From Bacteroidales bacterium (GTDB lineage Bacteria; Bacteroidota; Bacteroidia; Bacteroidales; UBA10428), in NCBI GenBank assembly GCA_016926235.1, contig JAFGOZ010000597.1, positions 1 to 6,074 of the forward strand: a stretch of 6,074 nt of DNA. The letters are read 5' to 3'. This document shows positions 3,342 to 5,991 of this stretch, in pieces. A program made the position numbers and the translations under genes. Under the pieces are notes generated by a model that worked only from the letters and a program-made list of their open reading frames with translations, was not told where the DNA came from and did not search any database. Each line of letters starts with the position of its first letter. Positions within the stretch are counted from its first letter, which is position 1.

Positions 3342-5135
3342 TTAAATTTTTGGGGTTCTGCCAACAGCTTCGCAGGATTCTGCCACTGCAGCACTCATAT
3401 CAAATTCACTTATATATTCTTCTTGCTTAACCAATACTTCGTAAACATTACGGAAGTGCTCAATACTGGTTAATATAGGATTAGCACAGGTTTGTCCCAG
3501 CCCGCAACGGTTAGCCTTCTTCATCATACTTCCCCATTTTACAAGGTCATCAATGTCACTTGCAATACCTTTGCCTCTCATAATTTTCTCCAGTTTAAAT
3601 TTTAATACCGGAGTTAAATTTCTACATGGAGCGCATGATCCGCAAGATTCTTCAATGAAGAAATCAGTAAAGTTGGCCACAATTTCCAGAAGGTTACGAT
3701 TGTTACCTATAATGATTATTGAACCACCAGTTGGCACATCTTCGTAGCAGATTCTACGCTTGAAGTCTTTAGGAGCAACAAGCATACCTGACGGTCCTCC
3801 AACCTGAACTGCCTGAACATCTTTAGCTCCAACCATTTCAAGCAAATCGGCAATAGATATTCCCCAGGCAACTTCGTATACACCGGGTTTTTCACAATCA
3901 CCTGAAATACTTAATAATTTTGTTCCTGCTGATTCATGTGTTCCGATTGATTTAAACCAACCTGACCCCTTGACCATTATTTTTGCCACTGAACAAAGAG
4001 TTTCAACATTATTTACTACAGTTGGCATTTGCATATATCCCTTTTGTACCGGAAATGGAGGCCTGTTTCTGGGTTCGCCTCTTTTGCCTTCAGCTGATTC
4101 GATGAGCGCTGATTCCTCACCACAAATATATGCACCGGCACCTAATTGTATGCGAATATCAAAATCAAAACCTTGTTTACCGGCTATATTTTTCCCTAAA
4201 AGATTTTTATTACGAAAATCCTGTAATACCTTCTCAAGATAATCTTTTAAATATTTATATTCATATCTTAAATAGAGAATACCTTCTTTCGCTTCCAAAG
4301 CATAACCTGCAATGATCATACCTTCAAAAAGCAGTCCCGGGATTTCTGTAAGTATAGCTCTTTCCTTGAATGTTCCAGGTTCTCCCTCATCTGCATTGCA
4401 TACAAGGTATGCTGTTTTATCTCCTTTTGCCCGACGACAAAAACCCCATTTCATACCTGTTGGGAAACCAGCACCGCCCCTCCCACGGATATTGGAATCG
4501 ATAACTTCGAAGACAACATCACCCGGAGCAACTGAAACAGCTTTTTTAATCCCTGCACCTTCTTCGTAATCGGAGAATAATACAGCTCCTTTCATCTCAA
4601 TGTTGTTATTTACCATGGCTTTCACCAACGCATCAGCATTCTTGCCGTCACCGAAAGATGTTACCATCTGATCAACAGATTTTCCTTCTTTCATGGCTTT
4701 TACTATAGTTTTGACTTTGTCTGTAGTAAGGCTGGTGAATACTTTACCATTAATTATGGCGGCTGGTTCCTGGTCATTCATACCAATACATGCGGTATTA
4801 AAAAGACCAATAGTACCATCGGCAGTTACTTTACCGAATGAAATTCCAATCTCTTCTTCAAATGCTTTGGCAATTTTTGCCCTTCCCATCATATTTGCTA
4901 CAGCGCTGTCATTCAGGTATATACTATATTTACCTGAAGGTTTGCTGTTAAAAAAGTGATAGAAAGAAAGCGTCTGTTCAACATCCACAGTTGATATTTT
5001 CAACTGGCTGGCAATATCTTTGATCATATCTTTCGATACATGACCGCTTTCAGCCTGGATATCCAATAAAATATCCATCAAGCGGGACTTATCGTTCTGA
5101 TATTTGCCAGTTACATTTTGTACTGTCTGTCCCAT
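3342..5135 (-). CDS. hoxF: HoxF, NAD(H)-oxidoreductase flavoprotein with fused NuoE-like domain
   Basis: Diaphorase subunit (597 residues) that exchanges electrons between NAD(H) and the Fe-S wire. Residues 1 to about 150 form a NuoE/HoxE-like thioredoxin-fold domain fused to a NuoF-like body, so no separate hoxE is expected. The NuoE part has lost most cluster ligands: N75, A80 and N120 stand where Cys is expected and only C116 (TACIGMND) remains, so the [2Fe-2S] cluster is probably absent. In the NuoF part: glycine-rich NADH/FMN loop RGRGGAGFPTG (217-227), CNADEGEPGTFKER (246-259), GAGAYICGEESALIE (332-346), an SLBB-type segment (about 404-450), and the [4Fe-4S] ligands C498, C501, C504 and C544. 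C550 is an extra nearby cysteine. Length and fused layout match the roughly 600-residue Ralstonia/Cupriavidus HoxF. This is the first gene of the operon; the leader is A-rich with no clear Shine-Dalgarno. Confidence 0.96.
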   Translation of the reverse strand: MGQTVQNVTGKYQNDKSRLMDILLDIQAESGHVSKDMIKDIASQLKISTVDVEQTLSFYHFFNSKPSGKYSIYLNDSAVANMMGRAKIAKAFEEEIGISFGKVTADGTIGLFNTACIGMNDQEPAAIINGKVFTSLTTDKVKTIVKAMKEGKSVDQMVTSFGDGKNADALVKAMVNNNIEMKGAVLFSDYEEGAGIKKAVSVAPGDVVFEVIDSNIRGRGGAGFPTGMKWGFCRRAKGDKTAYLVCNADEGEPGTFKERAILTEIPGLLFEGMIIAGYALEAKEGILYLRYEYKYLKDYLEKVLQDFRNKNLLGKNIAGKQGFDFDIRIQLGAGAYICGEESALIESAEGKRGEPRNRPPFPVQKGYMQMPTVVNNVETLCSVAKIMVKGSGWFKSIGTHESAGTKLLSISGDCEKPGVYEVAWGISIADLLEMVGAKDVQAVQVGGPSGMLVAPKDFKRRICYEDVPTGGSIIIIGNNRNLLEIVANFTDFFIEESCGSCAPCRNLTPVLKFKLEKIMRGKGIASDIDDLVKWGSMMKKANRCGLGQTCANPILTSIEHFRNVYEVLVKQEEYISEFDMSAAVAESCEAVGRTPKI

Positions 5136-5199: not shown

Positions 5200-5230
5200 C
5201 AAATTTACTTCGTTTATTTGTCTCTGCAAA
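5200..5230 (-). promoter_or_regulatory. Bacteroidota-type (-33/-7) promoter of the hox operon
   Basis: On the minus strand TTTG (5230-5227), a 19-base spacer and TAAATTTG (5207-5200) match the primary sigma factor consensus of Bacteroidota (TTTG, 19-21 bases, TAnnTTTG) with no mismatch. Transcription should start near 5193-5196, giving a leader of about 60 bases before the hoxF ATG. It is the only full match I found upstream of hoxF. Confidence 0.7.
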
Positions 5231-5342: not shown

Positions 5343-5350
5343 AATAAGCT
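5343..5350 (+). repeat. Left copy of 8-bp target site duplication
   Basis: AATAAGCT, identical and in the same orientation as the copy at 5600-5607, abutting the left inverted repeat of the MITE. The match runs one base further (G), but that base belongs to the symmetric GTAAC end. Confidence 0.75.
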
Positions 5351-5599
5351 GTAACTACCCAGGTATATCAATAATCCCGTAAGAGATTGAACGTGAATAG
5401 CCACAGGTTTTACCTGTGGTTTATAAAAGAAATGCGTCTTCCAAACCCTGAAAGGGTTTAACAGTTTAATATTCAAGCCATTCAGGCTTTTTTGCATTAC
5501 GGTATATATACCACCGATTCCATCGTCGGTTATTCATATTTAAGCCCTATGGGCTTATTTTTGTGTGCGCATAAGCTTTTAATATACCTGAGTAGTTAC
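5351..5599. mobile_element. 249-bp MITE with IS66-like ends
   Basis: The left end GTAACTACCCAGGTATATCA (5351-5370) and the reverse complement of the right end (5599-5580), GTAACTACTCAGGTATATTA, match at 18 of 20 positions. The repeats are directly bounded by an identical octamer, AATAAGCT, at 5343-5350 and 5600-5607, the signature of a transposition event. There is no transposase, so it must be mobilised in trans. Ends starting GTAA plus an 8-bp target duplication are traits of the IS66 family, which is common in Bacteroidota; that family assignment is inference. The interior is a run of short palindromes rather than coding DNA. Confidence 0.75.
5401..5557. repeat. Ladder of short palindromes inside the MITE
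   Basis: Successive hairpin-forming units are: CCACAGGT-TTT-ACCTGTGG (5401-5419), AAACCCT-GAA-AGGGTTT (5443-5459), AAGCC-ATTCA-GGCTT (5475-5489), the self-complementary GGTATATATACC (5501-5512), ACCGA/TCGGT (5513-5530) and TAAGCCC-TAT-GGGCTTA (5541-5557). The spacing is roughly 15-45 bases and each unit has a different sequence, so this is not a tandem repeat or CRISPR array. From memory it resembles dispersed palindromic stretches seen in many Bacteroidota genomes; I cannot confirm this here. Confidence 0.65.
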
Positions 5600-5607
5600 A
5601 ATAAGCT
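5600..5607 (+). repeat. Right copy of 8-bp target site duplication
   Basis: AATAAGCT, abutting the right inverted repeat. That the two copies are perfect suggests a fairly recent insertion. Confidence 0.75.
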
Positions 5608-5684: not shown

Positions 5685-5715
5685 TTTGAAATTTAATTAG
5701 ATATTTAGATATTTG
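5685..5715 (+). promoter_or_regulatory. Probable promoter of the arsR-type gene
   Basis: TTTG (5685-5688), a 19-base spacer and GATATTTG (5708-5715) fit the Bacteroidota promoter pattern with one mismatch in the -7 element. The spacing equals that of the hox promoter. Transcription would begin about 5720-5724, only some 10-14 bases before the ATG at 5734. Confidence 0.45.
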
Positions 5716-5724
5716 TCTAAATAT
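5701..5724. promoter_or_regulatory. ArsR-type operator over the repressor's own promoter
   Basis: Perfect 9-base inverted arms ATATTTAGA (5701-5709) and TCTAAATAT (5716-5724) flank the spacer TATTTG. A two-fold site of this size directly ahead of an ArsR-family gene is the usual autoregulatory operator. It contains the -7 element, so a bound dimer would shut the promoter. Autorepression is inferred from position. Confidence 0.65.
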
Positions 5725-5733
5725 AAAAATATA

Positions 5734-5991
5734 ATGAATAATATTTTTAAGGCATTAAACGACCCTGTAAGAAGACAAATTATTGAGCTCCTTAGGGATG
5801 GAGATAAAAATGTAGGGGAAATCTTCGAAAACTTTACTGTTACAATGCCAACATTATCCCATCACCTGGATATACTTAAAAGAGCTGATTTGTTAACAAG
5901 TGAAAAAAAAGGACAATTTGTTTATTATTCATTGAATTTGACTGTTTTAGATGATGTTATACATTGGTTACTTCAAATAAAAAACAAATAA
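5734..5991 (+). CDS. ArsR-family winged-helix repressor, SdpR-like, cysteine-free
   Basis: An 85-residue DNA-binding protein consisting almost wholly of the ArsR-type winged helix. MNNIFKALNDPVRRQIIELL (1-20) is the family's N-terminal helix pair, TVTMPTLSHHLDILKRADLL (35-54) holds the recognition helix, and KKGQFVYYSL (58-67) is the wing. There is no cysteine, so the classic metal-sensing motifs are missing; it resembles the SdpR autorepressor branch, whose members often sit beside a membrane partner gene. The frame can be extended to a TTG at 5713, but that codon lies inside the operator and the probable -7 element, upstream of the expected RNA start. ATG 5734, with an A-rich leader, is therefore preferred. 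The gene is divergent from hox. I see no complete copy of its operator at the hox promoter, so there is no direct sign that it controls hydrogenase. Confidence 0.85.
   Translation: MNNIFKALNDPVRRQIIELLRDGDKNVGEIFENFTVTMPTLSHHLDILKRADLLTSEKKGQFVYYSLNLTVLDDVIHWLLQIKNK

Follow-up and report, generated by a model that had tools for sequence, protein, structure and literature searches.

The locus described here raises the question of what kind of mobile DNA has settled between the divergent hox and arsR genes of a Bacteroidales bacterium, and where its ends and its interior come from. The stretch of DNA analysed, referred to in the following as the window, is 6,074 nucleotides long (contig JAFGOZ010000597.1 of GenBank assembly GCA_016926235.1), and its relevant features are compiled in Table 1. 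A first-pass annotation made from the sequence alone had recognized a MITE with an IS66-type mobilizer in the hox/arsR spacer; both parts of this interpretation stand, the second in a refined form, but the inverted pair of hairpin modules that fills the interior of the element had been overlooked. When these modules are taken into account, the 249 bp are very probably a chimeric non-autonomous mobile element in which a REPIN-like unit is carried inside an IS66-type (ISBst12-like) MITE.

Table 1. Features of the window, with positions counted from its first nucleotide.
Feature	Position	Strand	Basis
Whole non-coding mobile element, 249 bp; shell of IS66/ISBst12 type as judged from its ends, with paired-hairpin core	5351..5599	.	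Ends, duplication, ORF list, model hits
Target duplication, left 8-bp copy AATAAGCT	5343..5350	+	Sequence reading, repeat finder, paired-end survey
Target duplication, right 8-bp copy AATAAGCT	5600..5607	+	Sequence reading, repeat finder, paired-end survey
Left terminal inverted repeat GTAACTACCCAGGTATATCAA	5351..5371	+	Repeat finder, end scans
Right terminal inverted repeat, reads GTAACTACTCAGGTATATTAA on the minus strand	5579..5599	-	Repeat finder, end scans
Module copy 1, three hairpins at about 5373-5388, 5401-5419 and 5443-5459	5369..5463	+	Alignment; cmsearch with model R1, 74.5 bits
Module copy 2, inverted, hairpins at about 5475-5489, 5513-5530 and 5541-5557	5470..5560	-	Alignment; cmsearch with model R1, 88.2 bits
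Terminator-like hairpin followed by a T run, reads towards arsR; predicted function	5541..5565	+	Terminator scan
Fused HoxE-HoxF-like diaphorase subunit, start 215 bp left of the element	3342..5135	-	ORF list, domain matches
ArsR-type repressor, SdpR-family model NF033789 above cut-off; alternative ATG start at 5734	5713..5991	+	ORF list, domain matches

Re-reading of the sequence and the output of a repeat finder place the element and its flanking octamers exactly, to the base, where the first-pass annotation had put them. The left end (GTAACTACCCAGGTATATCA) agrees with the reverse complement of the right end (GTAACTACTCAGGTATATTA) at 18 of 20 positions, as had been stated, and the repeat finder reports inverted arms of 22 nt at 5350-5371 and 5579-5600 (91%). 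It scores the direct repeat as 9 nt rather than as the octamer AATAAGCT seen on reading, because the G that follows the octamer matches too. The ORF list of the window contains no frame of at least 60 aa that overlaps 5351-5599, which agrees with the earlier remark that nothing in the 249 bp codes for a transposase. The window holds a single place at which an exact 8-bp repeat bounds an 18/20 inverted repeat, and in just one of 300 dinucleotide-preserving shuffles of the window did an 8-bp repeat bound an inverted repeat under the relaxed threshold of 14/20. Short, non-coding, and provided with 18/20 terminal inverted repeats and a perfect 8-bp target duplication, the segment 5351-5599 is a MITE, as originally proposed. 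The plasmid and phage collections searched contain no match to the 249-bp element; a lone match to its end among the viral contigs (L001) was taken as chance, as it has no second end and falls within apparently coding sequence.

The element begins with GTAACTAC, and its GTAA ends together with the 8-bp target duplication are characteristic of the IS66 family. Canonical IS66 elements share the GTAA start and the 8-bp duplication with it but have ends that begin with GTAAGCG, in contrast to GTAACTAC in the window (PMC11946415). The ISBst12 group provides a closer counterpart: the accessible portion of the report on its member ISDge4 gives ends GTGACTACTCAGCA/GTAACTGCTCAGCA, an 8-bp repeat and one transposase gene of 449 aa (PMC12898284), and the window element has the same GTAACT..CAG-type ends and duplication length. 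Autonomous relatives in this group carry a single-ORF IS66 transposase, whereas the window element is gene-less and consists of ends and a foreign hairpin core.

Six of eight genomes searched contain a match to the IS66 transposase domain (PF03050), several of these being fragments only. An IS66 transposase gene adjoins the window-type end in two genomes that possess this end. In the first, of the Sulfuricellaceae (L061), the gene, one IS66 ORF of 477 aa, is situated between two window-type ends, the most similar of those that enclose an IS66 gene, which are 1,528 bp apart and match each other at 15 of 18 positions, and its flanks are without a duplication (2/8). In the second, from the Deltaproteobacteria (L062), there is one clear end; the candidate second end starts with GC and is likewise without a duplication. 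In these genomes, other than that of the window, a PF03050 transposase has the same type of end on both sides (L061) or clearly on one (L062), and both proteins score above the cut-off of NF033517 and contain zf-IS66 and DUF6444 domains. A search with the L061 transposase retrieved 211 plasmid records, and eight of the 30 listed were examined; GT-starting inverted repeats (11 to 17 of 18 positions) with perfect 8-bp duplications are present in six of them and absent in two, and the ends read GTAACTACTTAGGT in Planococcus and GTAACTGCTCAGCA in Deinococcus. On the strength of its resemblance to ISDge4 and these plasmid relatives, and not to the GTAAGCG type, we assign the shell of the window element, by its ends, to the IS66 family as ISBst12-like. 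The earlier suggestion of an IS66-family mobilizer had thus named the right family, seeing that the end recurs with 8-bp duplications and has IS66 genes beside it in two genomes, with the refinement that the ISBst12 group fits better than canonical IS66.

How widely this type of end is distributed was assessed by scanning the pattern GTAACTACYCAGGTATAT against the contigs of GTDB r220. The scan yielded 59 loci from 28 genomes, as counted from the titles, some of which may be chance matches, as L001 seems to be; they belong to a Treponema MAG (23 loci), Methanosarcinales archaea, Thermodesulfovibrionales, Sulfuricellaceae, several Deltaproteobacteria, a Magasanikbacteria MAG, a Fibrobacterota MAG and three Bacteroidota. 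After Paenibacillus, Fuchsiella and a Clostridiales MAG had been left out, the 13-mer GTAACTACTCAGG was found in 21 of the remaining 25 genomes, with a maximum of 151 ends (74+77) in a Saprospiraceae genome, while a reversed control pattern occurs 0 or 1 times per strand. The source genomes are mostly MAGs, so that wrong bins could inflate this host range and phylum assignments from single contigs may err. The 15-mer GTAACTACTCAGGTA is present in 2 of 395 sampled genomes from the phylum of a Bacteroidales MAG, that MAG being one of the two, and the window-type end is therefore patchily spread.

Pairs of such ends were surveyed at distances of 40-450 bp, allowing up to two mismatches in 13 and requiring a GTA start. 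Counting that of the window, 70 distinct elements with lengths of 55-422 bp were obtained; they are a non-random sample, as 32 of the fetched regions had been picked for having both ends listed. The duplication is perfect (8/8) in 36 of the 70 and reaches at least 7/8 in 44, with 26 below this value. Shuffled flanks gave no 8/8 and 0.7% at 7/8 or better, and not one 8/8 remained when the flanks were moved outwards by 1, 2 or 3 bp. Perfect duplications occur, as judged by locus titles, in Treponema (L008), Methanosarcinales (L018), Magasanikbacteria (L012) and Deltaproteobacteria (L030) and, as judged by genome handles, in Fibrobacterota (L143), Nitrospirae (L145), Saprospiraceae (L155) and Amoebophilaceae (L156). 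The Saprospiraceae genome also contains minimal elements of 55-57 bp (L193, L201, L207), which are nearly just two inverted ends and have duplications of 7/8 or 8/8; they provide a useful lower size limit for the transposition substrate.

The core of the window element consists, as an alignment with three other loci revealed, of an inverted pair of one 91-nt module with three hairpins, and it shares the inverted pairing of palindromic repeats with REPINs. BLAST found similarity to the element in 20 of 393 genomes from the order of the Bacteroidales MAG G001; none of the 30 core-bearing loci fetched from these matches contains the ends of the window element as a pair (up to two mismatches in 13). 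A covariance model of the module (R1; 91 positions, 22 pairs) was built on eight half-elements, two of which are the window halves, which therefore match it by construction; independent support comes from the BLAST similarity to other genomes. R1 gave 75 hits (72 distinct rows), its eight seeds included, in 52 sources (155 kb) and two hits in 30 control loci (133 kb), the 75 being non-independent, since L075 and L094 overlap and most loci had been picked up through their similarity to the window core or to Y1 genes from those genomes. In the 72 rows, 94.2% of the cells pair (74.0% after shuffling), 326 cells show changes on both sides (100.7 after shuffling), and the covariation score is 0.527, compared with 0.175 for shuffles (0 of 500 reaching it) and at most 0.079 when the pairing was slid; the underlying alignment (A3) was fitted to R1 and hence leans towards the structure, and the contrast with the slides is still large. 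Moreover, the motif TGAATA followed by a perfect hairpin of at least 7 bp was found at 26 of 148 places in core loci and at 0 of 139 in control loci.

These properties of the core bear on a rival account of the element, an ordinary IS66-derived MITE that arose by internal deletion of an insertion sequence and whose hairpins are incidental. Ends and duplication behave as they do in IS66/ISBst12 elements, and the paired-end survey includes elements of this type that are very short (55-78 bp), as such an origin would have it. The interior, in contrast, is a recognizable pair of Bacteroidales modules with covarying hairpins, which are also found where no shell was detected, and this makes the internal-deletion account improbable. 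R1 finds no module in 25 loci with the window-type end, nine of them from Bacteroidota, and the exact combination of the window's shell with this core is therefore known from the window alone.

The modules also have a connection with Y1 (RAYT-type) transposases. Matches to the Y1 domain (PF01797) are present in 12 of 12 genomes tested, and a Y1 frame is located within 50 bp of the core match in 3 of 30 core-bearing loci, compared with none in 30 control loci. According to model R1, a module lies near the gene in 5 of 21 Bacteroidales Y1 loci. Among eight loci having both, five (L075, L098, L179, L189, L190) display the same layout, a module on the plus strand, the Y1 gene and a module on the minus strand, in which the nearest modules overlap the Y1 frame by up to 11 bp or lie up to 115 bp away; in L078 and L187 a module is present on one side of the gene only, and L165 has two modules in the same orientation. 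Such flanking of a Y1 gene by one repeat in inverted orientation, here met with in other genomes of the order, is the layout described for RAYT genes and their REPs. The window core resembles REPIN/RAYT-REP systems in its inverted pair of hairpin repeats, and its module family flanks Y1 genes at some loci; it differs from them in having three hairpins per module and in being enclosed by a DDE-type shell with a target duplication. The available part of a survey of Y1 enzymes reports that subclasses 2.4 and 2.6 occur in Bacteroidetes, the latter with atypical flanking structures, and that the GT[AG]G tetranucleotide at the hairpin foot is absent in classes 2.6 and 3 (PMC6006769).

Given this association, the entire element could in principle be a REP cluster mobilized by a Y1/RAYT enzyme alone, its IS66-like ends and octamers being a coincidence or an outer REP hairpin. 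The position of modules beside Y1 genes in several loci is in its favour. The shuffles of the window described above, though, make a chance origin of ends and octamers unlikely, shells recur elsewhere with independent 8-bp duplications, and around seven Y1 loci with modules there is no GT-ended shell with a duplication of at least 7/8; the idea that these Y1 genes themselves reside inside an IS66-type shell was dropped on the same result. Furthermore, Y1 enzymes are not known to generate target duplications. A purely Y1-driven cluster is hence highly improbable. We prefer a REPIN-like core in an IS66-type shell because the module recurs in Bacteroidales, covaries and flanks Y1 genes in five loci.

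Is the window element unique in its two-part build? Among 38 places first located through the core, three are enclosed by inverted repeats that start with GT and are bordered by a duplication matching at 7 or 8 bp, compared with 0 of 380 control intervals; at the same cut-offs, two other end dinucleotides gave one and two core places. The three are L095, with GTAACTATTTAGCA ends, and L071 and L091, with GTAAGYTCAA...GTTTCAGA ends. The L095 genome has one pair of its ends and shows the architecture once. In the Bacteroidales genome G271, from which L071 and L091 derive, 26 occurrences of the end pattern were counted (0 for the reversed control); they form 12 end pairs, L071 and L091 included, with six further ends unpaired. 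The duplications of these 12 pairs are 8/8 in six, 7/8 in five and 3/8 in one, and all 12 contain module hits, nine of them a full inverted pair and three a shortened core (146, 146 and 166 bp). With 12 shell-plus-core elements in G271 and one in the genome of L095, the window element is therefore one of a kind that multiplies in Bacteroidales with differing ends, its own combination of end and core having been seen in the window alone. The 146-bp elements L311 and L319 have lost the centre of the core and kept their ends, with a perfect duplication in L319 and not in L311; L325 and L307 contain about 20-25 additional bases within one core hairpin, as if hairpin tips were insertion hot spots. 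IS66 matches in the two Bacteroidales genomes with this architecture are only short or broken, and the search for an autonomous partner of the GTAAGYTCAA-ended shells in their own genome retrieved IS66 fragments with other ends only.

Folded cores inside such shells are also present in other lineages. The fold test comprised 36 paired elements with a duplication of at least 7/8, none shorter than 110 bp and none containing N, many of them copies of the same families; the core folds more than 3 SD better than shuffles in 25 of these 36 (median -4.6; window -3.5) and in 0 of 21 flanking stretches. The cores vary from lineage to lineage: that of Treponema matches its own genome only, among 10, that of the Methanosarcinales has 44 matches in its own genome and two each in two others, and that of the Fibrobacterota also has matches in five other genomes, one of them with 70, mostly short. 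BLAST hits to the Fibrobacterota core lie mostly in the middle of the query, as though the repeat stood free; this notion was dropped once both ends had been found. In 12 of 16 fetched copies (L267-L282), the palindromic repeat ATTGCGAGCGAAGCGAAGCAATC is enclosed by both (variant) GTAACTACTCAGG ends, with up to three mismatches in 13 and about 130-145 bp apart, and in that genome the intergenic repeat is therefore the inside of a MITE; among the remaining copies, three run from a left end to the end of the contig, and one has a left end and a distant weak right end. In the Methanosarcinales archaeon, neither end is present in 6 of 15 fetched copies, which had been chosen mainly for weak or partial matches. 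From the copies with ends in the Fibrobacterota and those without in the archaeon it follows that shells around hairpin cores are common and that cores also stand alone. The cores of four other lineages have no match, at E values up to 0.01, to eight Y1 loci of their genomes, and the RAYT link is thus seen in the Bacteroidales alone.

The insertion lies 215 bp from the start of hoxF and 113 or 134 bp from that of arsR, depending on the start codon. On the minus strand, its left neighbours are the fused HoxE-HoxF-like subunit, a HoxU-like protein, a small subunit, a NiFe hydrogenase large subunit and a maturation protease, with several of the NCBIfam matches falling below their cut-offs. In the protein database, the HoxH nearest to that of the window (P0002, on a 9,495-bp contig) shows 97% identity, and 12 of the 14 listed relatives for which an organism is named are from Bacteroidales, Bacteroidetes or Bacteroidota, which probably places the host in the Bacteroidota. 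A single frame of 597 aa contains both the HoxE-like and the HoxF-like domain, and its 30 best-matching relatives in the order can be aligned with it across almost all of its length.

As another explanation, the 249 bp could be a conserved and structured part of the hox/arsR spacer with a regulatory role, such as a leader RNA or an attenuator. Folding of the element is much stronger than that of shuffles on both strands (z -7.7 and -8.3), because several hairpins sit inside the stem formed by its ends, and all three terminator-like sites between 5100 and 5800 are inside the element on the plus strand (0.2 expected), pointing in the direction of arsR. Against such a role stand the absence of an Rfam match at gathering scores, the presence of the module at many other loci, and the gene neighbourhood: none of the best 30 HoxF loci, from 215 genomes with a match, has a relative of this ArsR in its fetched flanks (tblastn, E up to 1e-6), although 5 of the 30 had less than about 350 bp upstream. 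We consider a conserved regulatory region exceedingly improbable. A conserved pairing of hox and repressor finds no support so far in these 30 loci, none of which offers an orthologous hox-arsR spacer in which the empty site could be read, and we therefore make no claim that ArsR ever controlled hox. Just upstream of arsR, the repeat finder detected a palindrome at 5700-5732 (ATATTTAGA-TATTTG-TCTAAATAT), and the 9-mer TATTTGTCT recurs at 5215-5223 near hoxF, to the left of the element; the palindrome is a candidate operator for ArsR, part of which is repeated on the hox side.

For the chimeric element that we favour, the following scenario can be envisioned. The shell, with its ISBst12-like ends of the IS66 family, would most likely have been cut there by a DDE transposase encoded elsewhere and acting in trans, and insertion between hox and arsR would have duplicated the 8 bp that now border the ends. 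The present insertion is thereby accounted for by the shell; the core, made up of a Bacteroidales repeat with three hairpins in two inverted copies, which elsewhere occurs shell-less and flanks Y1 (HUH, RAYT-type) genes in several loci, probably arrived earlier, and its association and layout with these genes suggest that a Y1 enzyme may have moved it. The insertion added several strong hairpins, one of them terminator-like, between two divergent genes, whose regulation it may affect.

Two known systems invite comparison. Cardinium belongs to the Bacteroidota. Its MITECca01 measures about 240 bp, close to the 249 bp of the window element, and has a likely parental IS in the genome, which is of the IS982 and not of the IS66 family; the accessible part of its description mentions no REP-type core (PMC9769881). 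In ISPpu9, as far as the available part of the report goes, an IS and REP sequences are physically joined as well, but there the IS lies inside the REP, whereas in the window the repeat pair lies inside the MITE (PMC8450116). Among the papers listed from the open-licence PubMed Central literature, we found none whose accessible portions describe REP pairs inside IS66-type MITEs.

For the movement of REP-like hairpin repeats and their accumulation in some genomes, a RAYT-type pair in an IS66-type shell suggests a second route by which such repeats may spread, with an 8-bp duplication marking each jump. In other phyla, too, IS66-type MITEs may have some of the intergenic hairpin repeats as their interior, as the Fibrobacterota copies suggest. 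We tentatively put forward, as a possibility that we rate somewhat below even, that IS66-type (ISBst12-like) MITEs form a recurrent two-layer class in bacteria and archaea, in which a shell with shared ends encloses a core from the lineage's own hairpin-repeat family, RAYT-type REPIN pairs in the case of the Bacteroidales. If this holds true, hairpin repeats would be spread by two unrelated transposases, DDE and HUH.
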